DNA of 64,000 bases from an uncultured Bacteroidales bacterium. Its GTDB lineage: Bacteria > Bacteroidota > Bacteroidia > Bacteroidales > Paludibacteraceae. The stretch covers positions 62,001 through 126,000 of the forward strand of contig CACZEL010000002.1 in the NCBI GenBank assembly GCA_902780235.1. Direction: 5' to 3'. The position numbers were made by a program, and so were the translations under genes. Under the pieces are notes generated by a model, which saw only the letters and a program-made list of their open reading frames with translations, was not told the DNA's origin and ran no database searches. Every line of letters begins with the position of its first letter. Position 1 is the first letter of the stretch. Below, one piece after another: positions 1 to 63,207 of this stretch.

Positions 1-2360
1 GCTTTGTCGTAACAGATCTCTGCCACGCGGGTAGCTGCTTCCTCTTGGTAGGGGTTGGCATTCATCTCCGCAAGAATGCTGTATTGCGCCAAGGCTTCGG
101 AACTCTGTCCGAGGCGGTAATACGAATCGGCGAGGTAGTAACGCGCGGTGGTACAATAACGTCCGCCGGCGCAGTATTGCGTCAGATAATTGCTGAGGCT
201 GACGGTTGCTTTCTGATATGCCGCCTGCATGTACTGCATCTCCGCTGCCGCATAGAGGAGTGAGTCCTCTGCGGTCGTGACGTTCATGTTCATCTTCGCG
301 AGGTTCTTGGTATAAGCCAAGTACTCGTCCACATTGCCGGACTCCACATAAAGGGCTTGCAAAGCATCCAAAGCCGTGTAGGCCTCTTCGGTAGCCGGAT
401 ATTTCTCAATCGTCTGACGATAAGCCGCTATCGCTTGATCGTTGATACCCAGGTTACGATAGAGCATCGCGCGCTCCAGAGACGCTTTTCGTGCCAGAGA
501 AGAGTGGGGATAAGTAGCCAGCAAACGCTCATAAGTCGTGATAGCTCCACGCTCATCGTCCTGCTGCAACTGAGCACGCGCGATCTCGTACATGCCGTCG
601 TCCGCATAATCGGACTTGGGATAACGCTTGATCAGGTCGTTCAGCACGTTGATCTTATCGCTGTACTTATGCTGCAAGCCCAGCGCGTAGCCGCGTTGGA
701 AGAGGGCATAATCGGCGCCCGAAGCCTGCAGGTTAGCTACCTGCGTATAATACGTGATCGCCTGCGGGAACTGGCGCGCATTAAAATAGCAGTCACCGAT
801 ACGGTTCAACGCATCCGCATACGTAGGCTCCGTAGCCTGTGCCTCGTCGATATAGATCGAGAAGGCGTTACGCGCTTTGTCGTACTGCTTGAACGAGAAA
901 GCGCAATAACCTTGCAGGTAACGCGCGATCGTCTTGTTCTCCGACTGGCGTACGTCCGGACGGGCGAAATAGGTATTGAGGTCTTTCTCGCAAGCCGCAT
1001 AGTTACGCAGACGGTAGTTGGCCTCTGCCCGTACATAATACGCTTCTGTCGTGTATTTGTCCGACTCCGCCGTATGGTTCGTCACCTCGGTCATCCAATC
1101 GATGGACTGCTGCATCTTGCCTTGCAGGAAATGATCCGCGCCTAACTGATACCGCAGGTACTGCTTGGTCTCTTTCATCTTTGCCGACGGGTTCGGCATC
1201 GAGTCCAAGGTCTCGATCGCAGCGGCGTAGTTCTTACTCTGCATCAAGGCATCCGAAAGCAGATGATAGATCTTCTCCTCGTATTTTGAGTTCGGATATT
1301 TGGTGAGGAACTCATGGAAAGCGCGAACGGACTCACCGAGAGCGCTCGAACTCTGATAAGTGCAGAGCGTATAGTTATACGCTGCCTCTTCGGTCACGGC
1401 CGGCGTCAACTGATAACCTGCTGCCGCTTGGTACGAGAGTTTCGCTTGCTCAGGTTGATTCAACTTTACATACGCGTTACCCATCGTCAGGCAAGTAGCC
1501 TCCGAGAGCGTGTCTTTCTCTTGCTTCACCTGCTTGAGCGACCCAACAGCTGCCGTATAATCGCCCAACTGATATTGGGCACAGCCAAGCATGTACATGT
1601 CGTTCCGAAGTACCTCCTCTTTGTTCTCCGCTGCCGCTTTCTGATAGACCTTGAGGTGCTCCACGGCCTTGCCGTAGTCCTTGGTCATGTACGCCATCTC
1701 GCCTAAGATACGATGAAGTTCGGCGTTATTGGCATTGTCGGGATTGGCCTTTAACAGGCTGTCTGCCCTTTGTGCAGCCTCGCCGTATTCGCCCTGCGCG
1801 TATTGGATCTGCGTCAGGTAATAGGGCACGGTCTGCTTGTATGCCGCCTCGTGCTCCAAGGACTTGAGGGCAGGCAACGCCTTGTCGTACTGCTCCAACT
1901 TATACATGCAGTACGCATAGTAATACGTACCTCGTGTCTTGTAGCGCGAGTCCGACTTCGACAGCTTGCCGAAATAGATACTCGCGCGCTGGTACTCCTG
2001 CATCATCAGGTACGCGTATCCGCGGTAAAACGAATAGTCGGTCTGGTGAGGACGAGTCAGCGCCTGGATGTCGATCGGCTCCAAGAACTTAAGCGCCTGT
2101 TTGTAGCGACCTTTCTCCACTTGCAATACGCCCTGCATAAAATTCACTTCGTCCAAGAAAGTGGTGTAGGGGTAGAGCTGCAGATAGGTCTTGAGATCGC
2201 GCTGCAAGAGTTTGTCCCGCCCGTCGAAACGAGCCGCCAACTCATTGTAGCGCGTCTCCATCTCCGTCGTCTGAGCGAAGAGGGGAAGGCTGAAGCTTAA
2301 TAAGATCGAGATGACGAGACCTCGAGATCTCGATATGTCGAATACTTGTTTTATAATCAT
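1..2360 (-). CDS. Large exported tetratricopeptide-repeat (TPR) protein, 3' end outside the window
   Basis: The frame opens at the ATG at 2358-2360 and is still open at base 1, so at least 786 residues are present. A short N-terminal export segment (VISILLSFSLPLFAQ, about residues 16-30) is followed by helical repeats about 34 residues long over the whole length, with the Y/G/A/L spacing of TPR units, as in YGAYAYLMMQEYQRA-like stretches. Large TPR proteins of this kind in Bacteroidota are usually periplasmic or outer-membrane-associated scaffolds; no catalytic domain is visible. The start overlaps the potD stop in an ATGA, so it is translationally coupled to the transporter operon. Codons 7-19, just before the hydrophobic core, are encoded by an 8-bp tandem array. 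The precise role is unknown. Confidence 0.85.
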   Translation of the reverse strand, partial: MIIKQVFDISRSRGLVISILLSFSLPLFAQTTEMETRYNELAARFDGRDKLLQRDLKTYLQLYPYTTFLDEVNFMQGVLQVEKGRYKQALKFLEPIDIQALTRPHQTDYSFYRGYAYLMMQEYQRASIYFGKLSKSDSRYKTRGTYYYAYCMYKLEQYDKALPALKSLEHEAAYKQTVPYYLTQIQYAQGEYGEAAQRADSLLKANPDNANNAELHRILGEMAYMTKDYGKAVEHLKVYQKAAAENKEEVLRNDMYMLGCAQYQLGDYTAAVGSLKQVKQEKDTLSEATCLTMGNAYVKLNQPEQAKLSYQAAAGYQLTPAVTEEAAYNYTLCTYQSSSALGESVRAFHEFLTKYPNSKYEEKIYHLLSDALMQSKNYAAAIETLDSMPNPSAKMKETKQYLRYQLGADHFLQGKMQQSIDWMTEVTNHTAESDKYTTEAYYVRAEANYRLRNYAACEKDLNTYFARPDVRQSENKTIARYLQGYCAFSFKQYDKARNAFSIYIDEAQATEPTYADALNRIGDCYFNARQFPQAITYYTQVANLQASGADYALFQRGYALGLQHKYSDKINVLNDLIKRYPKSDYADDGMYEIARAQLQQDDERGAITTYERLLATYPHSSLARKASLERAMLYRNLGINDQAIAAYRQTIEKYPATEEAYTALDALQALYVESGNVDEYLAYTKNLAKMNMNVTTAEDSLLYAAAEMQYMQAAYQKATVSLSNYLTQYCAGGRYCTTARYYLADSYYRLGQSSEALAQYSILAEMNANPYQEEAATRVAEICYDK
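2303..2342. repeat. 8-bp tandem array in the TPR protein signal region
   Basis: Five octamers in a row: AGATCGAG, ATGACGAG, ACCTCGAG, ATCTCGAT, ATGTCGAA. They lie in frame at the N-terminus of the TPR gene. The same octamer class recurs at 48039-48070 and 48768-48799. Confidence 0.8.
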
Positions 2361-3634
2361 CTAGCTAATTTAATTTCATTCCACATCTCGAGCAGCATCT
2401 CCTGGCTCTCGCCGGCGTCGTGCATCAGCGCACAACGATCGATAGTGCTCTTGTCGGCATAATAAACCGGGTTGAGGTGCAGCGCGTGCGGGTCAAGCAT
2501 CTCGCCGTCCACCTCGATCGGATCCTCGCCGAAGAAATAAGAAGCATCTACAGTCTCCGGCCATTCCTCGTCGTCGTTCATCTCCTCAAGGATCTCAGCT
2601 GCCGCGTTCGGACCTCCGGCACAAGATACATAACCGATCTCGTCCATGTTGAGCAACGCGTTCTCTGCCTTACACATGTAGTCGATGAAATAGGTAGCAG
2701 CCTTCACGTTCTTCGCGTACTTCGGGATCACCCAACCGTCGAACCATACGTTCGAACCCTCTTTCGGTACGATATAATCGAGCATAACGTCCATCTCGGC
2801 GGCCTCTTCGATCGCGAACTGTGCGTCGCCCGACCAACTCAGATTCAACCATGCTTTACCTTTGGTCATCTCTTCTTTACCGAAGTCAACCTCCCAACCG
2901 CAGATCTGCTTCTTCGCTTGCAGCAGGATCTCCTTTACGGCAGCGACACGTTCCGGCGTGATGTTACGAACCAACTCGTCGCGGTTCACTTCGCCCTTCT
3001 CGATCTGATCGGCATACGCATAGAGCACGAGTACCGAATAGACGTCGCGGAAAGCATCCTTCATCAAGATACGGTTCTCGAATTTCGGATCGAGGATGGC
3101 TGCCCAACTGGTCAGATCCTCGCGGTTGACGAACTGCGGGTTGTAGATGAAACCGGTCGTACCCCACATGTAACCGCAGGTGTAATCGCTCACCTGCACC
3201 TCATCACGCGGAGCCATCTGTTGGAACTTATTCAGCACGAACGGCGAGATATTATCGAAATAATAAATGCTGTCGGCGATGAGTTCTTTCTGAATCGGGA
3301 TCAACAGATCTTTCTTGAGCATGCGCTCAATGATGTACTCCGACGGGCAGAACACATCGTAGTCCTCGTGACCCACTTCAATCTTGGTGAGAGCGGTCTC
3401 GTTGATGTCGAAGGTCTCATACACGAGTTCCACTTTCTCGCCCGTCTGGTCGAAATACCACTGCTCGAAATTCTCCTTGACGTCCTCGTTGATGTAGTCC
3501 GCCCAGTTGAGCACTTTGAGTTGATGAGCGCGGTCAGAACCGCCGCAAGATGTCAACACGATGGCTGCGAGAGCCATTACCCAAATAGAAATTCTTTTCT
3601 TAGCCATCAAGGCACGATTAACTTCGTTTTTCAT
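2357..3634 (-). CDS. potD: Spermidine/putrescine-type ABC transporter substrate-binding lipoprotein
   Basis: A 425-residue periplasmic binding protein of the PotD family. The N-terminus is a lipoprotein signal with the lipobox LTSC (Cys at about residue 30). The mature part opens with LNWADYIN, the usual first strand of PotD, and later shows the SGDAQFAIEEA and WFDGWVIPKYAKN segments typical of the polyamine pocket region. It is the last transporter gene of potA-potB-potC-potD, overlapping potC by ATGA. The first ATG lies at that overlap; an alternative start is the ATG ten codons in (MAKKRIS). The first 40 bases are nearly identical to the start of the unrelated gene at 17729, so the first ten codons may be an added leader. 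Polyamine specificity is inferred from family only. Confidence 0.9.
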   Translation of the reverse strand: MKNEVNRALMAKKRISIWVMALAAIVLTSCGGSDRAHQLKVLNWADYINEDVKENFEQWYFDQTGEKVELVYETFDINETALTKIEVGHEDYDVFCPSEYIIERMLKKDLLIPIQKELIADSIYYFDNISPFVLNKFQQMAPRDEVQVSDYTCGYMWGTTGFIYNPQFVNREDLTSWAAILDPKFENRILMKDAFRDVYSVLVLYAYADQIEKGEVNRDELVRNITPERVAAVKEILLQAKKQICGWEVDFGKEEMTKGKAWLNLSWSGDAQFAIEEAAEMDVMLDYIVPKEGSNVWFDGWVIPKYAKNVKAATYFIDYMCKAENALLNMDEIGYVSCAGGPNAAAEILEEMNDDEEWPETVDASYFFGEDPIEVDGEMLDPHALHLNPVYYADKSTIDRCALMHDAGESQEMLLEMWNEIKLAR

Positions 3635-4998
3635 TTTTCTTTTTGTTTAGTATTACGAATATTGATTACAATCAAAGCAATAAGCATCACTAACAGGATG
3701 ATGGTGAATAGAGGCCTTAACTCCGGTGTCAAACCGCCCTTGCGGGCATCTGAATAGATGAACGTACTCAGGGTCTCCAAACCGCCGCTACCCTTCGTGA
3801 AGAACGTCACGCCGAAGTCATCTACAGACAAGGTCAGCGCCAAGATGAATCCGCTCAGCATGCCCGGCCATAACTCCGGCAGCATCACCATGCGCAACGC
3901 CTGCGCCGGCGTGGCACCCAGATCCAAAGCCGCTTCATACGTGTTCGGATTCATTCGACTCAGACGAGGCAACACGCTCAGTACCACGTACGGCGTACAG
4001 AACACCACATGCGCGATACAAACGGTCGCCAAACCTTGACTCATTCCCAACGCCACGAAGAGCAGGAAAAGCGATATACCGGTAATGATATCCGGGTTGA
4101 TCATCGGCACGGAGTTCAGCAGACTTACCGCCTTACGACTTCTTGCCCGCATGTTGTATATACCGATTGCGGCCAGCGTACCTAAGATCGTCGAAACAAC
4201 TGCTGCAATAAGAGCAATAACGACCGTGTACCAGATCGCGCTGTTCAGACCTGCATCCGCTTTGCCGGTGAACAGGTTCACGTACAGATCCATCGAGAAG
4301 CCTGTCCAGTTGCCGAGAATCTTACTCTTCGTGAACGAGAACACAGCGATCAAAGCGATCGGCGCATAGAGTACCAACAGCAACAACCACAAGTAGAGCT
4401 GCGAACCGTAATGGCGTCTCAGACCCATGCGTTTGCGGCGTAGCGTCTCTTGCTCTACGGCCGACAGACTCTTCTCTTTGCGGCGCTCATAGAAAATCCA
4501 TCCGCCGTAAAGAGCCGTACCAACCAACAGCAAGCCGGCAAACAACCACCAAATCCACCCCTTACTTCGTTGAGCCTCAGCCGTGTGCGTACGCACATAT
4601 CCGTCAAAAGTCTTATACGCGTTCTGCGCCATCACACGCTTGTTGCGGTTCTTGATCTCTTTCTTACTCTGCCAAACCGTCCATGTCGTCTCTCCCTCAT
4701 CCGTATAACTATAGATAGAATCGAATCTATCAGCCAAATTTGGCTGATTCATGGACGAGAAGATGAAATCGAAAGAGTCTGCCGTTTGTTCATTGTACAT
4801 TGAACATTGTACATTAATATTGATCTTCTCTCCCGCATAACTCTCCGGAAACTCCGCCAGTAGCGCATTCTCTCCCGTCGTTCCCACCTTCAACTCATAC
4901 GTCACATTCGACTGCGCCATCACGCCGATTCTTAAGAGAAGAAATAGCGATGAGAAAATAATTTTTAATTTATAATTTTTAATTTTTAATTCTCTCAT
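3631..4998 (-). CDS. potC: Polyamine-type ABC permease PotC with an unusual N-terminal extension
   Basis: The C-terminal 260 residues are an ordinary PotC-like permease with about six membrane spans and the cytoplasmic EAA loop (YEAALDLGATPAQAL, near residue 353) that contacts the ATPase. Ahead of it are about 190 extra residues: a signal-like segment ending near MAQS, a hydrophilic region of about 110 residues rich in Thr, Glu and Tyr, and an extra membrane span (WIWWLFAGLLLVG, near residue 145). Known PotC proteins start directly at the first permease helix, so the extension is unusual; its function is not recognisable. It also contains two 7-bp arrays, one at the start and one in the hydrophilic region. 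It overlaps both potB and potD by ATGA. A separate short gene fused in frame is another reading. Confidence 0.88.
   Translation of the reverse strand: MRELKIKNYKLKIIFSSLFLLLRIGVMAQSNVTYELKVGTTGENALLAEFPESYAGEKININVQCSMYNEQTADSFDFIFSSMNQPNLADRFDSIYSYTDEGETTWTVWQSKKEIKNRNKRVMAQNAYKTFDGYVRTHTAEAQRSKGWIWWLFAGLLLVGTALYGGWIFYERRKEKSLSAVEQETLRRKRMGLRRHYGSQLYLWLLLLVLYAPIALIAVFSFTKSKILGNWTGFSMDLYVNLFTGKADAGLNSAIWYTVVIALIAAVVSTILGTLAAIGIYNMRARSRKAVSLLNSVPMINPDIITGISLFLLFVALGMSQGLATVCIAHVVFCTPYVVLSVLPRLSRMNPNTYEAALDLGATPAQALRMVMLPELWPGMLSGFILALTLSVDDFGVTFFTKGSGGLETLSTFIYSDARKGGLTPELRPLFTIILLVMLIALIVINIRNTKQKEK
4791..4815. repeat. 7-bp array (CATTGTA/CATTGAA) inside the potC extension
   Basis: About 3.5 units of period 7. 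On the coding strand the words are TACAATG and TTCAATG, encoding the VQCSMYN segment of the extra N-terminal domain. Confidence 0.75.
4962..4991. repeat. 7-bp array (TTTTTAA) at the potC start
   Basis: Units TTTTTAA, TTTATAA, TTTTTAA, TTTTTAA in the first codons of potC, encoding a Lys/Leu/Ile/Asn-rich leader. The array lies right after the potB stop overlap. Confidence 0.75.
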
Positions 4999-7251: not shown

Positions 7252-7294
7252 TTCTTTTCATAAATACACGCGCATACTCGCGCAAAATACGCCG

Positions 7295-7325: not shown

Positions 7326-7374
7326 GCCTGCGCGCAATTTTATGAAAAAAACATTCATTATTCTGTCTAAAAAT

Positions 7375-7564: not shown

Positions 7565-7600
7565 CCATTGACTAAAATCAGCCTACCGCTTTCTATTATT

Positions 7601-7648: not shown

Positions 7649-7649
7649 G

Positions 7650-7829: not shown

Positions 7830-8384
7830 ATGGTATATAGATTTACTTTTTCGTGTGAGGAAGGCGATCCGAATTTCCGTCGCGTGTTTGAGGCAGACGC
7901 GGATGCCACGTTCCTCGAGTTACATGAAGCGATCCTGAAGAGTGTCGGGTATCCGGATGACCAGATGACCTCTTTCTTCCTTTGCAACGACGAGTGGGAG
8001 AAGGGTCAGGAGGTGACGCTTGTGGAGATGGATTCGAACTTCGAGTACGACAACATGGTGATGAACGAGACGCGCCTGAGTGACCTGATTGAAGAGGTTG
8101 GTCAGCGTCTGATCTACATCTTCGATCCGATGTTCGAGCGCTATTTCTTCGGTTCGCTCAAGGAGATCAAGCCGGGTGCGATGAACGGTGTAGAGTGCGT
8201 AGAGTCCAAGGGCAAAGCGCCGAAGCAGTTGAAGTCCGACGATCCGTTAGCGGGTGCCGGAGGCGGCAAAGGCGGCAACGATGACTTTATGTTCGACGAC
8301 GAGTTCAAGGATGAGTTAGACCTCGGCGACATCGACTACGAAGGGTTCCAGGACCTCAGCTTCGACGATGGCACTATGTTTTAA
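7830..8384 (+). CDS. pRiA4b ORF-3-like protein with acidic tail
   Basis: A 184-residue cytoplasmic protein. The N-terminal 100 residues (YRFTFSCEEGDPNFRRVFE, then SFFLCNDEW) look like the PRiA4_ORF3 family, a small alpha/beta fold common in Bacteroidota and of unknown function. A Gly-rich linker near residue 144 (AGAGGGKGGND) leads to a very acidic C-terminal tail rich in Asp, Glu and Phe. It is the first gene after the promoter at 7724-7754 and is followed by miaA with only a 7-bp array between. The family name comes from a plasmid gene; nothing here indicates mobility. Confidence 0.8.
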   Translation: MVYRFTFSCEEGDPNFRRVFEADADATFLELHEAILKSVGYPDDQMTSFFLCNDEWEKGQEVTLVEMDSNFEYDNMVMNETRLSDLIEEVGQRLIYIFDPMFERYFFGSLKEIKPGAMNGVECVESKGKAPKQLKSDDPLAGAGGGKGGNDDFMFDDEFKDELDLGDIDYEGFQDLSFDDGTMF

Positions 8385-8386
8385 CT

Positions 8387-8437
8387 TTAGCTGTTAGCCG
8401 TTAGCTTTTAGCTAATAGCCAATAGCCAATAGCCAAA
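8387..8437. repeat. 7-bp array between the pRiA4b-like gene and miaA
   Basis: About seven units of the type TAGCTGT, TAGCCGT, AGCTAAT, AGCCAAT, AGCCAAT, AGCCAAA. The array ends three bases before the likely ATT start of miaA and contains the in-frame TAG that bounds it (8423-8425). Confidence 0.85.
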
Positions 8438-8440
8438 GTC

Positions 8441-9382
8441 ATTAAAACTTTAGTTTTAATATTAGGGCCTACCGGCGTAGGTAAGACCGAACTGTCCCTT
8501 CGGGTCGCGGAGCACTATGGTTCGCCGATTCTCAGTTGTGACAGCCGGCAGATCTATCGCGAGATACCGATCGGCACAGCCGCGCCGACGTCAGAGGAAC
8601 AAGCACGCGTGAAGCACTATTTCGTAGCTACGCGGAACTTAGAGGAGGATTACAACGCCGGGCAGTACGAACGAGACGCGTTGAAGCTCTTGGAGGACTT
8701 GTTTAGGACCCATGACGTGGTGGTCATGGTCGGCGGTTCGATGCTTTATGCCGATGCCGTTTGTGAGGGTTTGGATGACCTGCCTTCTGTGCCGGCGGAG
8801 ATCCGCAAACAAGTGCAGCAAGCCTACGAGCAGCAGGGTCTCGCTTGGTTGCAAGCCGAAGTGCAGCGTCTGGATCCGGACTATTGGAACGAAGTGGATC
8901 AGCAGAACCCTGCGCGTCTGATGCATTGTGTGGAGTTATGCTTGACGACCGGAAGGCCTTATTCGTCATTGCGGACTAAAAAAGCCAAGAGCCAAGAGCC
9001 AAGAGCCAAGAGCCATTTACGCCCTTTCCGCATCCTCAAGATCGGTTTGGAGCGACCGCGCGAAGAGTTGTACGAACGAATCAACGCGCGCGTGCTGCAG
9101 ATGATGAACGAGGGCTTGGAAGCCGAGGCTCGATCGGTTTATCCCAAACGGCAACTCAATAGTCTGCAGACGGTAGGCTACCGCGAGCTGTTTGCTTATT
9201 TTGACGGCGAGTACGACCTACCGCGAGCGATTGAACTCATACAACAAAACACACGCCATTACGCCAAGCGCCAGATGACTTGGTTTCGGCGTGACGATAC
9301 GATACATTGGTTACAAGCCAAAGATGAATATGAAAAGAATATACTTGCTATTGATGCTCTGTTGCGCGCTGATGGCGTGTAA
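8441..9382 (+). CDS. miaA: tRNA dimethylallyltransferase, probable ATT start
   Basis: MiaA transfers the dimethylallyl group to A37 of tRNAs reading UNN codons. From 8441 the translation reads IKTLVLILGPTGVGKTE, the normal MiaA N-terminus with its P-loop, followed by SCDSRQIYREIPIGTA. The product is about 313 residues, the usual family length. There is no ATG, GTG or TTG in frame between the TAG at 8423 and the GTG at 8609, and starting at 8609 would delete the P-loop. The codon in the Met position is ATT. An in-frame AGCCAAG array at 8983-9015 adds a short Lys/Ser/Gln-rich loop near residue 185. The 3' end overlaps the next gene by about 59 bases. Confidence 0.9.
   Translation: MKTLVLILGPTGVGKTELSLRVAEHYGSPILSCDSRQIYREIPIGTAAPTSEEQARVKHYFVATRNLEEDYNAGQYERDALKLLEDLFRTHDVVVMVGGSMLYADAVCEGLDDLPSVPAEIRKQVQQAYEQQGLAWLQAEVQRLDPDYWNEVDQQNPARLMHCVELCLTTGRPYSSLRTKKAKSQEPRAKSHLRPFRILKIGLERPREELYERINARVLQMMNEGLEAEARSVYPKRQLNSLQTVGYRELFAYFDGEYDLPRAIELIQQNTRHYAKRQMTWFRRDDTIHWLQAKDEYEKNILAIDALLRADGV
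8983..9015. repeat. 7-bp array (AGCCAAG) inside miaA
   Basis: Four perfect AGCCAAG units plus AGCCA, read in frame as a KAKSQEPRAKSH-like loop between conserved MiaA segments. Confidence 0.9.
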
Positions 9383-10356: not shown

Positions 10357-10391
10357 AAATCACAAATAACAAATGTCAAATCACAAATGAC
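10357..10391. repeat. 7-bp array that contains the glycogen synthase start codon
   Basis: Five units AAATCAC, AAATAAC, AAATGTC, AAATCAC, AAATGAC. The ATG at 10387-10389 is inside the fifth unit. Confidence 0.9.
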
Positions 10392-11910
10392 TCAACCTGA
10401 TTATATTTTCGAAACCTCTTGGGAAGTGTGCAACCGCGTAGGCGGCATCTATGCCGTTCTCTCGACCCGTGCCGCTTCCATGCAAGCAGAACATCCTGAT
10501 AAAGTGTTCTTCTTCGGTCCCGATTTCGGCGATCATAGCGATATCTATTTCAAGGAAGACAAGAAACTCCTGAAGGATTGGAAAGCCCCGCTGCCTGTCC
10601 GCATAGGTCGCTGGCAAGTACCGGGTGAACCGATCGCTATCTTGCTGAAGTTCGATTCGTTATGGGAGAAGAAGGACGAGATCTATGCCTGGGCTTGGCA
10701 AAAATTCCAAGTGCAGAGTCACGCCGCGTATGGTGACTACGACGAGTCCTGCCTCTTCGGCTATGCCGCAGGTATGGTCATGGAGAGCCTCTATAAATGG
10801 CTAAAAGCGAAAAGCAAACAGCCAAAAGCGAATTTCTGCGCTCACGCCAACGAATGGCAGACAGCGTTCTCGATCTTCTATCTGCAGGATCATTGTCCGC
10901 AGATAGCGACGCTGTTCACGACCCATGCTACCGGTATCGGTCGTTCGATAGCCGGCAACGGCAAACCGCTCTACGATTATTTCGAGGGCTACAACGGCGA
11001 CCAGATGGCGTATGAGTTGAATATGGTTTCCAAGCATTCCGTTGAGAAACAAGCGGCTCACCATGCGGATTGCTTCACGACCGTCAGCGACATCACTGCC
11101 CGTGAGTGCAAGCAGTTACTCGACAAACCGGTCGATATCGTGACGCCGAATGGTTTCGAACCAACCTACGTTCCCAAAGGGAAAGCTTTCGACGAGCGTC
11201 GTGCTACTGCTCGTGAAGCCTTGCGCAAGGTAGCCGGTGAGTTACTCGGCGGTGTTGTGCCGCAGAACGCGTTGTTGGTGGGTATCTCCGGCCGTTTGGA
11301 GATGAAGAACAAAGGTATCGATGTCTTTGCAGAGGCTTTGGATAAGTTGGCGCAGAAGATCTATCATAGCGATCAACCCGAGAAAGAGGTGGTAGCCTTT
11401 GTCATGATCCCCTATCTCGACCGTGCTCCGGCGCGCAAAGGCAAAGTGAGTGCCGTTTTTGTGCCCTATTACCTTGACGGACAGGACCCGCTCTTCGGCA
11501 TGAAATACTACGACCTGTTGTTGGGCTTGGACGTCACTGTCTTCCCTTCGTACTACGAACCTTGGGGCTACACGCCGCTCGAGTCCTGTGCGTTCCATGT
11601 GCCGACGATTACTACCTCGCTTACCGGTTTCGGCGCGTGGGCAGCCCAACAGAAAGATCAATACGGCGTAGTTGTCGTTGAGCGTAATGACTCTAATTTC
11701 AATGAGGTAGCCGAACAGATCGCGGATTCGCTCTTGCGGTTCGACCGTTTGAGCGGCGAAGACAAAGCGCGTGCGCGCAAAGAGGCAGAAGCAATCGCGA
11801 AGCGGGCCGATTGGAAGCATTTCTTCAAGTACTACCGCAAAGCCTACGAGATAGCCCTCAAGAATCGAGATAACAGACTTACAGAACTCCAAAATCCAAG
11901 ATTATTATGA
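10387..11910 (+). CDS. Glycogen synthase, GT3 type
   Basis: A 507-residue cytoplasmic glycosyltransferase that elongates alpha-1,4-glucan from a nucleotide sugar. The N-terminus FETSWEVCNRVGGIYAVL is the hallmark of the eukaryote-like GT3 family rather than GT5 GlgA. Later come TTHATGIGRSIAG and, near residue 395, FPSYYEPWGYTPLES, which carries the conserved E-x7-E. The enzyme lies upstream of a C69 dipeptidase, overlapping it by ATGA. The product is somewhat shorter than typical Bacteroidota GT3 proteins. An in-frame 7-bp array at 10800-10834 inserts a Lys-rich loop (KAKSKQPKAN) in the N-terminal Rossmann domain. The start codon lies within a second array. Confidence 0.92.
   Translation: MTQPDYIFETSWEVCNRVGGIYAVLSTRAASMQAEHPDKVFFFGPDFGDHSDIYFKEDKKLLKDWKAPLPVRIGRWQVPGEPIAILLKFDSLWEKKDEIYAWAWQKFQVQSHAAYGDYDESCLFGYAAGMVMESLYKWLKAKSKQPKANFCAHANEWQTAFSIFYLQDHCPQIATLFTTHATGIGRSIAGNGKPLYDYFEGYNGDQMAYELNMVSKHSVEKQAAHHADCFTTVSDITARECKQLLDKPVDIVTPNGFEPTYVPKGKAFDERRATAREALRKVAGELLGGVVPQNALLVGISGRLEMKNKGIDVFAEALDKLAQKIYHSDQPEKEVVAFVMIPYLDRAPARKGKVSAVFVPYYLDGQDPLFGMKYYDLLLGLDVTVFPSYYEPWGYTPLESCAFHVPTITTSLTGFGAWAAQQKDQYGVVVVERNDSNFNEVAEQIADSLLRFDRLSGEDKARARKEAEAIAKRADWKHFFKYYRKAYEIALKNRDNRLTELQNPRLL
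10800..10834. repeat. 7-bp array (GCNAAAA) inside glycogen synthase
   Basis: Units GCTAAAA, GCGAAAA, GCAAACA, GCCAAAA, GCGAATT, read in frame as a basic surface loop. Confidence 0.9.
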
Positions 11911-16058: not shown

Positions 16059-17732
16059 ATTGCCGTCATTGGCCTGCCGCGAAGCGGTAAGAGTTCGTTG
16101 ACCAAGGCCTTGCAGGAATTAGCCAACAGCCAAGAGCTAAGTGCTAAGAGCCACGCCATGCAATTCGTTGAGGTACATGACCCCGACGAGTTGCACGGCC
16201 ATGCCTATGACGTGGTCTTGCAGGTCGTGGACTCGACGCGCTTGGAAGAGTCCCTGATGCTCACGCCGCATATCATCGACGAGCATCAGAAGATCGTGCT
16301 GGCGATCGGACGCTATGACCTGCTGTTAGAGACCGACCACTCGCTCAATATTCCGAAACTGGAGCAGTTGATCGGTGTACCGACCTGCCGTGTCTCGGTG
16401 CGCCTCAACTACGGCTTGGCGAACTGTCTGGGCATCGTCGAGAACACGATCCATAAACCGGTCTCTACGGCGCACCCGATCTACCACCTCCGGGACCAAG
16501 GGGACGAAGACACTTATCGCGCGTACGTACACGGTATATTAACGGAGACGCTCACGCACGCGAAAGACGACCAGCATCAGACACGCCTCGAACGTATCGA
16601 TAAAGTGCTGACGAACCCTTGGTTGGGTTTCCCCATCATGATGGCGGTGCTCTACTTCGTCTTCTGGTGTACGTTCACGTTGGGCGCTTATCCGCAGGAA
16701 TGGATTGAGAGCGGAATCGACTTGATGGCCGATTGGATGAGGGGACTCATGGATCCCTCATGGTGGTCCTCGCTTCTCATCGATGGTGTACTGCAAGGAG
16801 TAGGGGCGGTGCTTGCTTTCCTGCCGAACATCATCATCCTTTTCTTCTTTATTTCCCTCATGGAAGACTCCGGTTACATGGCGCGTGAGGCGTTTATCAT
16901 GGATACGATCATGCACCGCGTCGGCCTCCACGGACGTAGTTTCATCCCGATGCTGATGGGCTTCGGTTGTAACGTACCGGCGATCATGGCCGCCAAAGAC
17001 ATCCAGAACCCCAAGGATAGGGTTTTGACCATGCTCATGGTGCCGTTCATGTCGTGCTCGGCGCGTCTGCCGGTCTATATGCTGTTTGTCGATACCTTCT
17101 TTGAGCGTCACAAGGCACTTGTCATGATATCGCTTTACGCGATAGGCATTTGCCTATCGGTGCTCTTTGCCATCATCATGAAGCGCACCAAATGGTTCAG
17201 GCAGGATAACGATGATACGGTCAACGAGTTGCCGGAGTTCCGTCTGCCGAAGGCGCGTAACACCGCCGCTCATATATGGGAGCGCGTAGTGGACTACTTG
17301 CAGAAGATATGTACGGTCATCCTCTGGGCGTCGATCATCATCTGGGCACTCGAGTATTTCCCGACGCAGGACCTCAACGACCTGGAGCACTCGTATCTCG
17401 CTTCGATCGGTCAGTTCGTCTCGCCGCTCTTGGAGCCCCTGGGCTTCGATTGGAAGATGTCTGTCTGCCTGTTGACCGGTCTGCCGGCTAAGGAAGCTAT
17501 CGTCTCCACGCTTGCTATCCTGTATGGCGGAGACATCAGTGCGGCCGGTTTCACACCTTTGACGGCCTTCTCGTTCATGCTCTTCGTCCTGCTCTACTTC
17601 CCCTGCGTAGCCACGATCGCTACTCTTCGTCGCGAGGCCGGCAAAGTGTGGGCATGGTTTACCGTCTTCCACAGCCTTGCATTGGCTTGGCTCGTATCCT
17701 TTATCGTTTATCAAATAGGAATGTTATTATGA
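16059..17732 (+). CDS. feoB: FeoB-type ferrous iron permease with degenerate GTPase domain, probable ATT start
   Basis: The membrane part is normal FeoB: two Gate regions with GFGCNVPAIMA and SCSARLPVYMLF, then LTGLPAKEAIVSTL and FPCVATIATLRRE. The N-terminus IAVIGLPRSGKSSLTKAL carries the P-loop, but no ATG/GTG/TTG lies in frame upstream of it (the stop is the TGA at 16011), so ATT at 16059 is the likeliest start; length about 557 residues versus roughly 700-800 in the family. The region that should hold switch I and the G3 DxxG motif is missing and is replaced by a 7-bp array (ELANSQELSAKSHA), and G4 reads AIGRYD. Iron import is likely; GTP-driven gating is doubtful. It overlaps the next gene by ATGA. 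Confidence 0.88.
   Translation: MAVIGLPRSGKSSLTKALQELANSQELSAKSHAMQFVEVHDPDELHGHAYDVVLQVVDSTRLEESLMLTPHIIDEHQKIVLAIGRYDLLLETDHSLNIPKLEQLIGVPTCRVSVRLNYGLANCLGIVENTIHKPVSTAHPIYHLRDQGDEDTYRAYVHGILTETLTHAKDDQHQTRLERIDKVLTNPWLGFPIMMAVLYFVFWCTFTLGAYPQEWIESGIDLMADWMRGLMDPSWWSSLLIDGVLQGVGAVLAFLPNIIILFFFISLMEDSGYMAREAFIMDTIMHRVGLHGRSFIPMLMGFGCNVPAIMAAKDIQNPKDRVLTMLMVPFMSCSARLPVYMLFVDTFFERHKALVMISLYAIGICLSVLFAIIMKRTKWFRQDNDDTVNELPEFRLPKARNTAAHIWERVVDYLQKICTVILWASIIIWALEYFPTQDLNDLEHSYLASIGQFVSPLLEPLGFDWKMSVCLLTGLPAKEAIVSTLAILYGGDISAAGFTPLTAFSFMLFVLLYFPCVATIATLRREAGKVWAWFTVFHSLALAWLVSFIVYQIGMLL
16121..16155. repeat. 7-bp array (AGCYAAG) in the FeoB G domain
   Basis: Units AGCCAAC, AGCCAAG, AGCTAAG, TGCTAAG, AGCCACG, in frame shortly after the P-loop helix. 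Confidence 0.9.
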
Positions 17733-18106: not shown

Positions 18107-18140
18107 GCTAATAGCTAACAGCTAACAGCCAATAGCCATT
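18106..18140. repeat. 7-bp array (AGCTAAC/AGCCAAT) after gapA
   Basis: About five units between the terminator and the gapA stop codon: TGCTAAT, AGCTAAC, AGCTAAC, AGCCAAT, AGCCATT. Confidence 0.85.
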
Positions 18141-19299: not shown

Positions 19300-19359
19300 A
19301 TAATTCGTATAAAAAATTAAATTTTGTTATCTTTTTTTAGCAAAATAGGGCTTTTCCCC

Positions 19360-19387
19360 TTTCATCTTTCACTTTTCACCTTTCACT
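19360..19387. repeat. 7-bp array (TTTCACY) containing the RNase H stop codon
   Basis: Units TTTCATC, TTTCACT, TTTCACC, TTTCACT. The TGA of the minus-strand RNase H gene (19383-19385) is inside the last unit. Confidence 0.85.
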
Positions 19388-20033
19388 TTCTTCCAAAATC
19401 CGCCGGAATCTCGCCCCAAGCTTTGGTGTCCCACTTATAGATAGGGGTATTCCATGTGTTGTCATGCAGCCACATTTCCGCCTTCCTCACCATGAAAAAG
19501 AGGTCTTGGTTGGAGGCATTCCATTCGATCTTGGTGTCCGCGTGGCCTTTCTTGAGCCATGAGAGCGCTGTGCGGCTATCCGTGTAAAGCGCCCACGGCA
19601 GGTTGTTCTGCTTCAGATAAGCTAAGCCCAATACGATCGCTAAAAACTCGCCGATATTATTGGTGCCTTGCTGAAACGGTCCGCGATGAAAAACCTCCGT
19701 ACCGGTATCGGCGATCACACCGCGGAACTCCATCACACCGGGGTTACCGCTACAGGCGGCATCCACTGCCAAAGCAGGGAGAATGGGAGTCGAGAATTGA
19801 GAATTGACAATTGATAAATGAGAATGGCCTTCCTTCTCTGTCTTGGGTTTGCGGATGATATACAGGTCGGGGGAAGAGCTAAAAGCCTGCTCGGCTTCCT
19901 GACGTGTAGCAAATCCTTTGAATTTCGCACCCGTCTGCCCTTTTACCTGCGCTTCGCAGTCCTCCCATGTATCGTAGATACCGGGTGTCTTACCGGACCA
20001 CACAACGTAATATGCTGCTTTTTTCTTACTCAC
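19383..20033 (-). CDS. rnhA: Ribonuclease H with viroplasmin-like N-terminal domain
   Basis: About 216 residues. The N-terminal 50 residues (AAYYVVWSGKTPGIYDTWED then CEAQVKGQTGAKFKGFATR) are the viroplasmin-like hybrid-binding domain found in eukaryote-type RNase H1. The C-terminal domain has the RNase H fold, with the acidic residues in AVDAACSGNP, IGEFLAIVLGL and ALYTDSRTA. It removes RNA from RNA/DNA hybrids. GTG at 20031-20033 is chosen because an ORF from further upstream would overlap tRNA-Arg. A 7-bp array (19792-19826) encodes part of the linker between the two domains, where extra length is easily tolerated. Confidence 0.9.
   Translation of the reverse strand: MSKKKAAYYVVWSGKTPGIYDTWEDCEAQVKGQTGAKFKGFATRQEAEQAFSSSPDLYIIRKPKTEKEGHSHLSIVNSQFSTPILPALAVDAACSGNPGVMEFRGVIADTGTEVFHRGPFQQGTNNIGEFLAIVLGLAYLKQNNLPWALYTDSRTALSWLKKGHADTKIEWNASNQDLFFMVRKAEMWLHDNTWNTPIYKWDTKAWGEIPADFGRK
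19792..19826. repeat. 7-bp array (GAGAATT) in the RNase H linker
   Basis: Units GAGAATT, GAGAATT, GACAATT, GATAAAT, GAGAATG, in frame between viroplasmin and RNase H domains. Confidence 0.9.
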
Positions 20034-25995: not shown

Positions 25996-26020
25996 CGACT
26001 AACGACCAACGACCAATGAC
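25993..26020. repeat. 7-bp array forming the whole uxaB-uxaA junction
   Basis: Units TAACGAC, TAACGAC, CAACGAC, CAATGAC. The first three bases are the uxaB stop and the ATG inside the fourth unit starts uxaA. Confidence 0.95.
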
Positions 26021-29800: not shown

Positions 29801-29821
29801 GTTGAAAGGTGAAAGGTGAAA
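29801..29821. repeat. 7-bp array (GGTGAAA) with the start codon of the NlpC gene
   Basis: GTTGAAA, GGTGAAA, GGTGAAA directly after the nadB stop. The GTG at 29816-29818 is in the third unit. Confidence 0.85.
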
Positions 29822-30616
29822 GGAATTTCATTATATAGTGTGACGCCGGTACGAACGGAGGCTAGTGAGGCGGCGGAGCAGAGTACGCAGATCTTGTTCG
29901 GCGAGACGTTTGCCATATTGGAGCAAAAACCCCGATGGACTCGCGTTAAACTGGACTCGGACGCTCAGGAAGGATGGGTGGATGCGAAGATGATTTGTCC
30001 GATGAAAGCGGAGGAATATGCATCTTATCGTCAGGCTTTGAACGGTGCTGCGACCGTGGTCATGCCGATGGCTTATGCCGTGAGTGAGAACAACGGTCAG
30101 ACCATCCCGCTTACTGCCGGTACCCGCTTGACGAACTATCAAGCCGGAAGGTTCGAAGTGCTCGGTGTCGGTTTTCGTATCGATCCGGGCATGGTGATTG
30201 CAAAAAGTCTCGATTTGAACGAACAAAATCTGCTGCAAGCGGTGCGTTTTTTCCTCAATATCCCTTACCTTTGGGGAGGCAAGAATGCGATGGGAATGGA
30301 CTGCTCGGGCTTTACGCAGATCATCCTGAGTCTCTTTGGTAAAAAACTTCCGCGTAATGCTTCCGAACAAGCCACTTGCGGACGTAAGATAAGTGCGCTT
30401 ACAAAGGTCAAAGCCGGCGACCTCGTTTTCTTTAATCACCAATCACCAATGACCAATGACCAATCACCAATCTCCCACGTAGGCATCGTGATAGATGCAG
30501 AACGCGTGATTCATTGTTCAGGACGCGTGAAAGTGGAAAAACTCGATGAAACCGGCATTTTTAATGCAGAGACCGGTCAATATTCGCATCATTTAGTCAG
30601 TATCCGAAGAATATGA
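29816..30616 (+). CDS. NlpC/P60 family peptidase with bacterial SH3 domains
   Basis: A 266-residue protein. SH3-like strands in the first 130 residues (LYSVTPVRTEASEA, TRVKLDSDAQEGWVDAKM) precede an NlpC/P60 domain with the catalytic Cys in GMDCSGF (near residue 163) and His in SHVGIVID (near 221). Such enzymes cut peptide bonds in peptidoglycan stems. No signal peptide is seen after the GTG start, so it may be cytosolic, recycling muropeptides, or the true start may be lost. Six AATSACC repeat units (30434-30475) are inserted in frame immediately before the catalytic His motif. It overlaps the sirtuin gene by ATGA. Confidence 0.88.
   Translation: MKGISLYSVTPVRTEASEAAEQSTQILFGETFAILEQKPRWTRVKLDSDAQEGWVDAKMICPMKAEEYASYRQALNGAATVVMPMAYAVSENNGQTIPLTAGTRLTNYQAGRFEVLGVGFRIDPGMVIAKSLDLNEQNLLQAVRFFLNIPYLWGGKNAMGMDCSGFTQIILSLFGKKLPRNASEQATCGRKISALTKVKAGDLVFFNHQSPMTNDQSPISHVGIVIDAERVIHCSGRVKVEKLDETGIFNAETGQYSHHLVSIRRI
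30434..30475. repeat. 7-bp array (AATSACC) beside the NlpC catalytic His
   Basis: Six units: AATCACC, AATCACC, AATGACC, AATGACC, AATCACC, AATCTCC. This is 42 bases, exactly 14 codons. Confidence 0.95.
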
Positions 30617-50270: not shown

Positions 50271-51195
50271 ACTGAATAATAGTTAAAGCCGTCATGGCTT
50301 CGACGACGGGCACGGCGCGAGTGGCAACACACGCGTCGTGTCTTCCTTTTACACCGGCTTTGGGAGTGGAAGGCGTGGGTTTGAAGACGCAGCGGAAGAC
50401 GATCTCTGAACCATCGGAGATGCCACCGGAGATGCCGCCGGAGAGGTGGTTGATGGCAGAGCCGGGTTGGGTGACACCTCTAAAACCGGTACCGTACTCA
50501 AAGCCTTTGCAGGCATTGATGCTCATGACGGCAAAAGCGAGGTGGGCTTGCAGTTTGTCGAAGATGGGTTCACCTGTACCGACGGGCAGACCGTTGATAC
50601 GGCACTCGATGATGCCGCCGATCGAGTCACCGTCTTTCTGATACGTGGCGATCGTGTCGGCGAATTTTGCCGGATCGGTCTCTGCGCCTACTTGAACCAA
50701 GGTCGCTGAGATACAGATTCCTTTTTGTGCCAATTGCTGTTTGGCGATACAGCCGGCCACAACGCGGGCTGCTGTTTCGCGGGCTGAGGCTCTACCGCCG
50801 CCTCTCCAATCGCGGATACCGTATTTCTGTTCATAGACCCGATCGGCATGGCCGACGCGATAGGTGTGCTTAAATATTTCGTAATCCTCCGGTCGTGCGT
50901 CTTTATTGCGAATGATAAAAGCGATCGGTGTACCGAGGGTCACTAAAGAACTTTGGCTGTTGGCTGTTGGCTGTTGGCTTATCACCCCTGAGAGCCATTC
51001 CACTTCGTCGGGTTCGTTTTTGGCACGAGCGGAGGCACCTACCACTCCTTTTCCGGCACGGCGCTCCAACTCTTCGCGGATCTTCTCGAAGTTAATAGGA
51101 AGACCTGCAGGTACGCCGTCCAGTACACCGCCTATCGCTGCTCCGTGGGACTCACCGAAGCTCGTAAACGTCCATTTTTCGCCAAATGTATTCAT
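50263..51195 (-). CDS. aroC: Chorismate synthase
   Basis: FMN-dependent last step of the shikimate pathway, 310 residues (most relatives about 350-360). TSFGESHGAAIGGVLDG at the start, YGIRDWRGGGRASARETAAR and GRHDACVATRAVPVVEAM at the end are present, so the catalytic core is intact; loops are shortened. An in-frame TTGGCTG array (50953-50980) replaces a surface loop near residue 75. Expressed from the palindromic divergent promoter at 51215-51262. Confidence 0.95.
   Translation of the reverse strand: MNTFGEKWTFTSFGESHGAAIGGVLDGVPAGLPINFEKIREELERRAGKGVVGASARAKNEPDEVEWLSGVISQQPTANSQSSLVTLGTPIAFIIRNKDARPEDYEIFKHTYRVGHADRVYEQKYGIRDWRGGGRASARETAARVVAGCIAKQQLAQKGICISATLVQVGAETDPAKFADTIATYQKDGDSIGGIIECRINGLPVGTGEPIFDKLQAHLAFAVMSINACKGFEYGTGFRGVTQPGSAINHLSGGISGGISDGSEIVFRCVFKPTPSTPKAGVKGRHDACVATRAVPVVEAMTALTIIQFI
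50953..50980. repeat. 7-bp array (TTGGCTG) inside aroC
   Basis: TTGGCTG three times and TTGGCTT; in frame on the minus strand it encodes a Ser/Gln/Asn-rich loop. Confidence 0.9.
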
Positions 51196-52412: not shown

Positions 52413-53594
52413 GTGTTTGGATTGGATTTTAATACGGTTGACTATATCCTTTTAGGGACGTTATTGGTACTTTTCCTGGCGCAGATTTATTGGTACGCGC
52501 GCTATATGTGTGCCCCTGCGCGCAAGATGAGGAAGAGTCGAAAGTCAAAAGTCGAAAGTCAAAAGACAGCCGAAACGCCCGGAGTGACGGTGGTCTTGTG
52601 TGCGCATAATGAGGCATATAATATATCGAACTACCTGCAAGCCCTTTTGACGCAGGACTACCCGGAGTATGAGGTGATCGTGGTGGATGATGGTTCGGAG
52701 GACGAGACCCGTGCGATGATCGAGCGGTATATGGTTCACGACGAGCGTCTGCACATGACTTTTGTGCCTTACGGCGCACGTGTGGGATCGACGAAGAAAT
52801 TAGCCTTGACCCTTGCGGCAAAGGCGGCGAAGTACGACTATCTGTTGCTTACCGATGCCGATTGCGTTCCGGAGAGCAATCAATGGATCCGCACGATGAT
52901 GGCGGGATTTGAGGAAGTACAAAGTGACAAGGTACAAAGTACAAAGGATCTTGTCTTGGGCTTTAGTCCGTATTTTATTGAAAAAGGACACGTGAATCGT
53001 TTGATTCGTTTTGATACTTTGTTCAACGGGTTACATTATTTGGGCGATGCTCTCTGCGGACACCCGTATATGGGCGTGGGACGTAACTTGGCGTACCGCA
53101 AGTCGCTCTTCTTTGAGTCGGGTGGTTTTACCCATTCGATGACGAGTAAGGCCGGAGATGATGACCTGTTCGTGAACCATCTGGCTACCAAAACGAACAC
53201 GGCGGTAGTGGTGACACCGGAGAGTTACATGTGGTCGCTGCCCAAGCGAACGATGAAAGAGTGGATTCAGCAGAAACGCAGACATCTGTCCGTCTCGCCG
53301 AACTACCGTTGGGGCACGAAGATCCGTTTGCTCATGGAGCCTCTCACGCGCGGATTGTTCTATGCAGCGGTGCTGTATGTAGTGGTCAGTTATCAGTTAT
53401 CAGTTGTCAGTTTGGCAGCACTCGGCTTGTTCCTGTTGCGGTGGATGATCCAGACGATGATACTCAATATATCCGCTCGCAAGATGGGGATGAAACGATT
53501 CTGCATGGCGAGTGTGTTGTGGTTTGATGTCACGCTTCCACTGGTGAACCTTTGGATGCTGATTGTCCCGAAAAGAAAGAATACAAAATGGTAA
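52407..53594 (+). CDS. Membrane-bound family 2 glycosyltransferase
   Basis: A 395-residue GT2 enzyme: one N-terminal helix (YILLGTLLVLFLAQIYWYA), catalytic domain with VVLCAHNEAYNI, the UDP-sugar DxD in LLTDADCVPE (near residue 150), the GDDDLFVNHL segment and the QQKRRHLS (Q/RxxRW-like) motif, then two or three C-terminal helices. It probably transfers sugars at the inner membrane. Three separate in-frame 7-bp arrays lie in the N-terminal cytosolic linker, after the DxD, and in a C-terminal membrane helix. GTG start lies in a fourth array. Confidence 0.9.
   Translation: MKVFGLDFNTVDYILLGTLLVLFLAQIYWYARYMCAPARKMRKSRKSKVESQKTAETPGVTVVLCAHNEAYNISNYLQALLTQDYPEYEVIVVDDGSEDETRAMIERYMVHDERLHMTFVPYGARVGSTKKLALTLAAKAAKYDYLLLTDADCVPESNQWIRTMMAGFEEVQSDKVQSTKDLVLGFSPYFIEKGHVNRLIRFDTLFNGLHYLGDALCGHPYMGVGRNLAYRKSLFFESGGFTHSMTSKAGDDDLFVNHLATKTNTAVVVTPESYMWSLPKRTMKEWIQQKRRHLSVSPNYRWGTKIRLLMEPLTRGLFYAAVLYVVVSYQLSVVSLAALGLFLLRWMIQTMILNISARKMGMKRFCMASVLWFDVTLPLVNLWMLIVPKRKNTKW
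52537..52564. repeat. 7-bp array (GTCRAAA) in the glycosyltransferase linker
   Basis: GTCGAAA, GTCAAAA, GTCGAAA, GTCAAAA in frame, giving a basic SRKSKVESQK linker after the first helix. Confidence 0.95.
52917..52945. repeat. 7-bp array (GTACAAA) after the DxD of the glycosyltransferase
   Basis: GTACAAA, GTGACAA, GGTACAAA, GTACAAA; encodes VQSDKVQSTK. The chimera at 56884 has a close copy at the same place. Confidence 0.9.
53386..53413. repeat. 7-bp array (RTCAGTT) in a membrane helix
   Basis: GTCAGTT, ATCAGTT, ATCAGTT, GTCAGTT in frame, giving VSYQLSVVSL in a C-terminal hydrophobic segment. Confidence 0.95.
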
Positions 53595-53934: not shown

Positions 53935-53966
53935 ATGAATTGAAAATTGAAAATTGAAAATTATTG
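53933..53966. repeat. 7-bp array (TTGAAAA) before the phosphorylase
   Basis: AAATGAA, TTGAAAA, TTGAAAA, TTGAAAA, TTATTGA fill the space between the DUF3467 stop and the ATG at 53972. Confidence 0.85.
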
Positions 53967-63155: not shown

Positions 63156-63160
63156 AATTC

Positions 63161-63207
63161 CATTTGGTCATTTACCATTTACCATTTATTTGACCATTTG
63201 GTCATTT
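63161..63207. repeat. 7-8 bp array between rnfB and rnfC
   Basis: CATTTGG, TCATTTAC, CATTTAC, CATTTATTT, GACCATTTGG, TCATTTT; the rnfB stop (63202-63204) falls in it. Confidence 0.8.

Follow-up and report, generated by a model that had tools for sequence, protein, structure and literature searches.

The heptanucleotide repeats of cyanobacteria are known under the name STRR. Direct repeats of the heptamer TAACTGA occur in marine Beggiatoaceae, some cyanobacteria and five Bacteroidetes, and they were proposed to serve, in the Beggiatoaceae, as sites for a nucleic-acid-binding protein (MacGregor, 2015; PMC4679880). Heptamer arrays of the type GGGNATC have been described in Xanthomonas and Nostoc (Rehm, 2015; PMC4692102). 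The tandem repeats of Borgs are enriched in A, evolve fast, arise independently and are located for about half inside open reading frames (ORFs; PMC9879509). Here and below, these three papers are cited for their accessible parts, and in these the origin of the heptamer arrays in cyanobacteria, Xanthomonas and giant sulfur bacteria is not settled. In this study, short tandem arrays, mostly of 7-bp units, were analyzed in a stretch of 64,000 nucleotides of an uncultured Bacteroidales bacterium (G000:C2:62001-126000, further called the window), in the remainder of its genome, G000, and in related genomes. Their resemblance to known heptamer arrays (PMC4679880; PMC4692102) had been pointed out in a prediction made from the window alone, and the comparison was a fair one. 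Going beyond that prediction, we found different words at the same site in relatives, a preferred size of 31 bp, phase-locked array ends and a dispersed hairpin with the motif AGCYAA. Something seems to rewrite the array sites, and the pattern is not easily accounted for by the ordinary stuttering of repeats. The data fit one-step replacement by discrete tracts, whose source we infer, better than growth by slippage, a preference that we hold tentatively and at somewhat less than an even chance.

Abundance and size of the arrays

The assembly of G000 measures 2.28 Mb in 58 contigs and is 79% complete. The original prediction had assigned the window to a Bacteroidota and had described more than thirty arrays, mostly of 7 bp, at gene junctions and inside genes, with words recurring on both strands. 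Each of these points was borne out. As judged from the gene for an M20-family peptidase, the nearest named relatives of the host are metagenome-assembled genomes of gut and rumen Paludibacteraceae (Bacteroidales), and the number of arrays holds when weak ones are included: of the 101 rows that Tandem Repeats Finder (minimum score 30) returned for the window, 36 have period 7, with two places entered twice. A stricter caller (lag 7, match +1, mismatch -2, score of at least 13) retained 16 period-7, three period-8 and five period-11 arrays, together with 11 arrays at period 14 and four at period 22, which are harmonics, and 0-2 at each remaining period from 3 to 30; the mean for period 7 in ten Markov-4 shuffles of the window was 0.0. 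When applied with a score of at least 12 to a 464-kb sample, i.e., 20% of G000, the caller found 127 period-7, 27 period-8, 10 period-9 and 19 period-11 arrays, versus 0 for each of these periods in one Markov-4 shuffle of the sample. Direct tandem units of 7 bp of the STRR type are therefore present genome-wide above chance. Consistently, the pattern AGCCAATAGCCAATAGCCAA (up to three mismatches) was matched at 171 places on the plus and 191 on the minus strand of the whole genome, and its reversed control at 0 and 1.

Sizes and positions were determined for 246 period-7 arrays from five genomes. Their length peaks at 31 bp both in and outside genes, with means of 32.0 and 31.3 bp, respectively, when arrays of ~60 bp or more are left out. 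The arrays have 3.5-5 units in 168 cases, with a mode at 4-4.5, and the counts above one shuffle were 23 at 21-23 bp, 76 at 30-32 bp and 20 at 36-38 bp. In simulations at about the observed divergence, 50-70% of the arrays of 3-3.5 units and 82-90% of those of 4-4.5 units were detected; at higher divergence, this was 32-53% for 3-3.5 units. At these detection rates, the dip below four units is real and the peak does not result from detection. Period-8 arrays have 3.5-4.5 units in 27 of 50 cases, and a four-unit peak is not clear for arrays of period 9 (16) and period 11 (40).

These sizes bear on slippage, according to which chance duplications of local heptamers expand, mutate and homogenize, and persist where selection tolerates them. 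Such an origin agrees with the heptamer excess reported among the simple repeats of many bacterial genomes (PMC4692102, accessible part). However, the length distribution is peaked rather than decaying, and units diverge about equally at all distances, with mismatch at lags 7, 14 and 21 being 0.102, 0.124 and 0.109 in arrays that were selected on lag 7. With the evidence discussed further below, we consider slippage as the general cause rather unlikely, though it is the rival that deserves most weight.

The ends of arrays of one family also tend to fall in a common phase. Same-family arrays in G000 coincide in phase at 0.244 of their starts and 0.261 of their ends (1119 pairs), as compared with a mean of 0.168, and maxima of 0.226 and 0.247 in 200 runs, for arrays simulated with randomly placed ends, with internal variation and caller kept as in the real data. 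The ends are, thus, modestly phase-locked beyond this artifact control. A stronger locking (0.31/0.34) was set aside, as it was obtained with exact-word families, sister orthologues included, and a naive null. The clearest case is a 33-bp tract of the type AAAGG(TGAAAGG)x4, present at several unlinked places in G000, in and outside genes, and also in the genomes G102 and G029. The likeness between same-family arrays stops ~6 bp outside the array.

Words and genome dialects

The 127 arrays in the sample of G000 represent 46 canonical words out of 1172 possible, and there is no single dominant word as in the TAACTGA system. The leading groups are AAAGGTG, with 19 arrays, and AGCYAAN, with a number of rotated and variant forms. 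The words differ in other genomes, e.g., AACTATC, AACCGAG and AATTATC in G048, and AAAATTC, ATATCCG and long ATCGGAG-type arrays in G053. AA or TT is present in 96% of the array words vs. 61% of random genomic heptamers. Runs of GGG, as in heptamers that form G-quadruplexes, are confined to one of the 46 words in G000 (AATCCCT, one array), one of 20 in G048 (AACCCAT, one array) and two in G053 (AATACCC and ATCCCCG).

Arrays on different contigs of one genome had matching words (similarity of at least 6/7) in 14.2% of 1244 sampled pairs, and in 11.6% of 2114 pairs in G000 alone, vs. 3.9% of 4140 pairs between genomes. Identical canonical words were found in 4.5% of the pairs in G000 and 7.6% in G048, as compared with 0.1% for random genomic heptamers. 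The higher sharing within than between genomes and the excess of identical words point to genome-wide word dialects, and the occurrence of the same words at unlinked loci throughout a genome argues against slippage. In each of the five genomes, and in small numbers, arrays less than 1.5 kb apart shared words (similarity of at least 6) in 18-23% of the pairs vs. 11-16% for arrays farther apart.

The same sites in relatives and in a sister pair

The window was compared with fetched relatives with positions 1-7,799 and 39,101-45,999 left out, apart from loci that may overlap. Orthologous intervals were available for 18 of the 28 strong arrays in the window, and at 15 of these 18 sites at least one relative also carries an array. 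Where both orthologues carry a period-7 array, and after removal of self-comparisons, identical sequences and double counts, the word was near-identical (similarity of at least 6.3) in 7 of 9 comparisons with flanks of at least 90% identity, in 4 of 22 with flanks of 85-90%, and in 18 of 151 with flanks below 85%; in the last class, similarity was below 5.2 in 97 of 151. In one pair of loci (L073/L072), the flanks are 96% identical and the words unrelated. At 30434..30472, the array has as its counterpart a unique sequence of 21 bp in 10 of the 13 rows with orthologues, which represent 7 of 10 genomes.

The array in the M20-family peptidase gene encodes a loop. A motif search revealed 23 residues between the flanking motifs in 25 of 27 more distant extracted sequences and 23-38 residues in the 14 sequences extracted from closer relatives, in 5 of which an array of another word spells the loop (AAATCAT, CAATCTC, TGCACAA, CCAATAG and CAAATCA types). 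Positions 11743-15190 of the window align over ~3.4 kb at ~95% identity with a locus (L014, G036:C19) of a species that matches less well elsewhere in the window; the identity fades just before the peptidase-gene array, where the word changes. The alignment suggests a recent recombination between species. Exchanged words could be imported more generally in this way, i.e., by homologous recombination with other gut species that brings in orthologous alleles bearing other words. The ~3.4-kb tract is in favor of such import. However, the flanks of replaced or absent sites in the sister pair discussed below return to ~91% identity beyond 30 bp, like those of same-word sites, and import leaves unexplained why the donor has a different word of equal length. 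We therefore regard import as an improbable general explanation.

The sister genomes G102 and G029 (~90% identical where aligned) yielded 39 records at 27 distinct sites, which were classed by eye from the alignments. The same word and length were found at 10 sites, one of them eroded, and the arrays are, thus, present in independent assemblies, as the original prediction would have it. One site was partly changed, two differed in copy number, eight carried a different repeat and six no repeat. The different repeats include four swaps of period 7 for period 8 and two weak cases, C1:7832, with two units only in the sister, and C1:37651, with an irregular repeat. With regard to the changes in unit number between close relatives that mark the phase-variable simple repeats of contingency loci, length was equal at 10 of the 12 same-word sites of these two species and differed by units at the other two. 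Whole-word exchanges and exchanges between periods 7 and 8 exceed copy-number changes, which speaks against slippage. At replaced or absent sites, identity was 74% in the first 10 bp beside the array, 84% in the next 10 and 88% at 20-29 bp, before reaching the level beyond 30 bp given above, vs. 94% directly beside the array at same-word sites; these figures derive from 18 and 21 records, with many sites entering twice. As identity is low at the edge and recovers beyond it, replacement extends slightly past the array, and not far.

Position relative to genes

Genes were called with a purpose-made simple gene caller, and start sites may be off. The 246 arrays are located inside genes in 93 cases and in non-coding DNA in 153; 133 of the latter lie between co-directional, 13 between convergent and 5 between divergent genes, and 2 have no flanking gene in the sample. 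As the coding fraction of G000 is 0.85, arrays are enriched outside genes, yet common inside them. The 93 in-gene arrays have period 7, unlike Borg repeats in ORFs, where the unit is divisible by three.

The TAACTGA system is characterized by a forward orientation directly ahead of start codons. Of the 133 arrays between co-directional genes, 77 begin or end no more than 5 bp from the upstream stop, and 33 are equally close to the downstream start. Their sense strand is C-poor (A 40%, C 10%), and individual words have an orientation bias, e.g., 9:1 for AAAGGTG. The closeness to stops, the C-poor sense strand and the orientation bias would suit arrays that are selected binding sites for a nucleic-acid-binding protein reading the repeated heptamer near starts and stops. 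Against this function speak the large number of in-gene arrays, the word, which is mostly not kept at orthologous sites, and the presence of the arrays, which differs between sister species. Furthermore, the orientation of the in-gene arrays may reflect the avoidance of stop codons. Overall, a regulatory role as the reason for the arrays appears unlikely.

A dispersed hairpin and other dispersed sequences

Inverted heptamer arrays form a hairpin with the AGCYAA motif. Its 46-bp core pattern (up to three mismatches) was found in 10 copies in G000 and in 6 copies in four other genomes when 151 genomes were searched. The copies (L304-L319) measure roughly 57 bp and mostly have the ends ACWTT...AAAGT. 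In the bare sequence, irrespective of reading frame, the 7 bases that precede the element contain TAA in 13 of 16 copies, and the end GCNAAAGT is followed by ATG within 15 bases, likewise in 13 of 16. Both strands of two of these hairpins were predicted to fold as RNA at -16 to -27 kcal/mol (z -3 to -6), and two plain arrays did not fold in the same test.

From its sequence, this sub-family looks like a dispersed element. Being discrete and dispersed in 16 copies, it is what would be expected if short hairpins and arrays were moved, like REP or MITE elements, by a Y1 transposase of the RAYT type. Nevertheless, hairpins are a minority, and most arrays are not hairpins. Moreover, no match to PF01797 (Y1_Tnp) was found in G000 at E 0.001 in a genome that is 79% complete, nor in the array-rich genomes G006 and G096, and the presence of Y1_Tnp in 16 of 26 genomes had no evident relation to array density. 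Movement by such a transposase is, hence, highly improbable as the origin of the arrays.

Two other dispersed sequences were observed. A sequence of ~80-100 bp, GAGTTTGGTACAA...GGTAGGACGCTTTGT, with heptamer arrays on both sides, is present at two loci in G074 and one in G045 (L054, about 1390-1500 and 5366; L059, about 1399-1500). An intergenic sequence with the motifs TTTGCATATATGCAA and TACCTTTGCA is located at 33367-33521 in the window and at many other loci in G000, and is the deepest repeat in a self-comparison of the 464-kb sample. Perhaps, it is an extended promoter of the lineage.

Origin of the arrays

We propose that discrete tracts of ~31 bp replace sites in one step where the site tolerates change, with slippage playing a minor part; this proposal remains tentative, with a probability that we put just below even. 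A tract would consist of some four steps of one word, of 7 or less often 8 or 11 bp, and be written in a single event. The targets would be sites that tolerate change, i.e., the space from a stop codon to the next start, and protein loops, where the new tract would displace the resident sequence, an older array included, plus up to ~20-30 bp of the edge. The tract may be copied from a template, either another genomic array or a diffusible template, rather than be grown locally by slippage. Which tracts survive might then depend on selection acting on the reading frame, on stop codons and on C-poor leaders, and point mutation and rare slippage of units would erode the survivors. Two mechanisms would fit, namely gap-filling synthesis coupled to reiterative copying and ectopic copying in which arrays already present serve as the source. 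One-step replacement is favored by the size peak, the recurrence at orthologous sites, the replacement of whole words, the disturbed edges, the genome-specific words, the near-equal divergence of units one, two or three steps apart and the modest phase-locking of the ends.

Several observations weigh against this proposal, and part of them are in favor of slippage. No array was present in 93 of the 130 site-by-genome cases, as compared with 37 with an array. Most arrays keep their word at flank identities of at least 90%, so replacement is not very fast. The excess of phase-locking over the artifact control is only modest, and neither a template RNA nor an enzyme or a target motif came to light. 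Slippage does occur: at 2 of the 27 sites in the sister pair, the arrays differ in length by whole units, with 20 vs. 13 bp at one site and 96 vs. 26 bp at the other. Local turnover would also account for a pair of GAGAATT and GAGATTT arrays (L022/L023), in which one and the same base differs in concert throughout almost all units. When flank identity is below 85%, orthologous arrays have a mean similarity of 4.87/7 vs. 4.14 for random same-strand pairs, and this residual similarity fits descent with drift or shared site constraints. Finally, a unit matching at 6/7 or better was present in 54% of the empty alleles vs. 40% by chance, with a mean excess per array of 0.14 ± 0.06, which hints at inexact local seeds. 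Exact local seeds were rejected as the origin, since there was almost no excess: the exact unit occurred in 5.6% of 432 rows vs. 4.4% expected. These rows, with coding and non-coding sites pooled, represent 422 array-by-genome cases from 85 arrays.

The original prediction had seen no enzyme that could make the arrays, and none was identified in profile comparisons of the genomes either. A match to the reverse transcriptase profile RVT_1 was present in 6 of 24 genomes, including G000. It was not found in the array-rich genomes G137, G034 and G048 (97-98% complete), G043 (95%), and G074, G006 and G096 (83-86%). A reverse transcriptase that copies a template in a telomerase-like manner was, therefore, rejected as a general cause. 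One of two score-split subfamilies of Y-family polymerases was commoner in array-rich genomes, with a Mann-Whitney p of 0.083 in 24 genomes of uneven completeness and with small sequence samples, and no role is claimed for it. A more specific version of one-step replacement would be that the genus has a dedicated array-writing polymerase, neither RVT_1 nor Y1, which uses a short species-specific template to write some four steps of a heptamer into gaps in the DNA where the site tolerates change, with drift of the template shifting the word dialect; this is a speculative idea that we consider quite unlikely.

Distribution of the arrays

Array density was surveyed in genomes with a sample of at least 15 kb. 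Runs of N in L242, L246 and L252 had produced false arrays in a first count; arrays containing N were, therefore, skipped, and L242 and L252 were dropped. Within the genus, the density varies from 0 (G027, G028, G055 and G004) to 500 per Mb (G137, with a sample of 20 kb only). In a hand grouping by kinship, it was 181 per Mb in 17 loci of the closest named records, 12 per Mb in the next 9 loci and 6 per Mb in 54 other loci, where all three arrays come from one locus. The original prediction had supposed an array-making process specific to this lineage. A genome-wide process indeed acts in the lineage. Its specificity, as worded in the prediction, was not supported, given the variation in density within the genus and the wider occurrence of one of its words: AAAGGTG x3 (up to two mismatches) occurs in 21 of the 247 genomes that represent the order, G000 included, in scattered families, with 146 matches in G000 and 1-30 per genome in 20 of the 246 others, one of them from the same genus.

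Unusually long ATCGGAG-type arrays, of 152 and 216 bp, are located in G053 (G053:C113 and L216, 5496-6503), a genome that is otherwise poor in arrays. The arrays of the window discussed in this study are listed in Table 1. The window also contains arrays of 22- or 11-bp units at 24005-24092, 24200-24265, 37513-37557 and 46840-46885, one of which consists of four 22-bp copies with 96% matches.

Table 1. Tandem arrays and hairpin in the window, with gene context and state in orthologues
Position	Strand	Repeat	Context and orthologues
4786..4815		TTGTACA, period 7	inside gene 3631-4920(-)
4959..4991		TAATTTT, period 7	stop of gene 4995-5723(-) 4 bp away
8381..8447	+	AGCYAA hairpin (inverted heptamer arrays)	directly after stop of 7830-8384
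8983..9015	+	AGCCAAG	in gene 8609-9382; +27 bp vs. 13/14 orthologues; different-word array in the remaining one
10357..10388	+	AAATCAC/AAATAAC	fills gap between stop 10355 and start 10387
10803..10832	+	AAAAGCG	gene 10387-11910; same site: AAAAGCC in L019, AAAAATT-type in L018
11940..11969		CTTTCGA	near start of gene 11907-13592; CTTTCAC in L012 and L013, TATCAAC in L023
15064..15095	+	AGCYAAN	loop of M20-family peptidase gene 14490-15962 (pepD-like); different words in relatives
16121..16151	+	AGCYAAN	gene 16098-17732; equal-length eroded version in L012
17794..17826	-	AAAGGTG, 33 bp	common ends AAAGG...GAAAGG
18107..18138	+	AGCYAAN	intergenic; stop of 18142-19206(-) 4 bp away
19353..19390	-	AAAGGTG-type	over 3' end of gene 19383-20033(-)
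19792..19821		GAGAATT	inside gene 19383-20033(-)
25992..26024	+	AACGACC	stop 25995 / start 26016; other-word period-7/8 arrays in 4/11 orthologues
29799..29823	+	AAAGGTG	at stop 29800; other-word arrays in 3/10 orthologous rows (L054, L048, L070)
30434..30472	+	AATCACC/AATGACC	inside NlpC/P60 gene; array of same word type in L068
31294..31327	+	ATTAGTGA, period 8	gene junction; period-7 GTGAAAG array in L041, period-8 array in L042
32108..32141		TCGATTT	gene 31690-32466(-); equal length: weak different array in L041, unique sequence in L042
48035-48069, 48764-48799		period-8 arrays	some of palindromic words such as CGTCATGACG
50953..50979	-	AGCCAAC	in gene 50263-51195(-); +30 bp vs. 7/8 orthologues, +28 vs. 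the other
52536..52565	+	AGTCGAA/AGTCAAA, alternating	glycosyltransferase gene 52407-53594; other words in 2/9 orthologues
53386..53412	+	TCAGTTA	near 3' end of gene 52407-53594
53938..53962	+	AATTGAA	stop 53934 / start 53954; period-7/8 array in 11/15 orthologous intervals, mostly other word
63169..63188		CATTTAC	gene junction; same word in L072 and L079, ATTAAAA array in L088

Comparison with known systems

With at least 151 species-level genomes available for comparison, dense arrays and a measurable turnover of words, the genus makes the origin of such arrays testable. If coding loops do receive tracts in a single step, such tracts would constitute an unrecognized source of change in proteins and operon junctions. 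Among the matches listed in the open-licence PMC literature, none described heptamer arrays from this genus or the replacement of words at fixed sites. Heptamer arrays as such are already known, but the accessible parts of the literature examined mention neither the pattern of replacement nor the phase-locking, nor a preferred size among words that are poor in G-tracts or otherwise not G-rich.

The TAACTGA system resembles the present one in that its reverse complement, TCAGTTA, is the word of the array at 53386. According to the accessible part of its description, one word dominates there and direct repeats of related heptamers are seldom seen in the main genome (PMC4679880), whereas here 46 words are found in 464 kb, 93 of the 246 arrays in five genomes are located in genes, and species differ in the word that they have at a given site. 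The GGGNATC arrays are G-rich, and their bias for four units was linked to G-quadruplexes (PMC4692102, accessible part). The arrays described here have the same four-unit preference, but with A-rich words, nearly all without G-tracts, and this speaks against the formation of G-quadruplexes as the general reason for it. The heptanucleotide repeats of Calothrix, as cited in the same paper, likewise comprise several words in tandem. They belong to another phylum, however, and a large in-gene share, word replacement and phase-locked ends are not described for them in the accessible part of that source. With the Borg repeats, the arrays have in common the enrichment in A, the fast evolution, the independent origin and the large share in ORFs. 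However, the units of Borg repeats in ORFs have a length that is a multiple of three, are almost free of mismatches and differ from locus to locus (PMC9879509, accessible part), whereas the units of the present arrays are 7 bp everywhere and degenerate, and their words are common to several loci of one genome.

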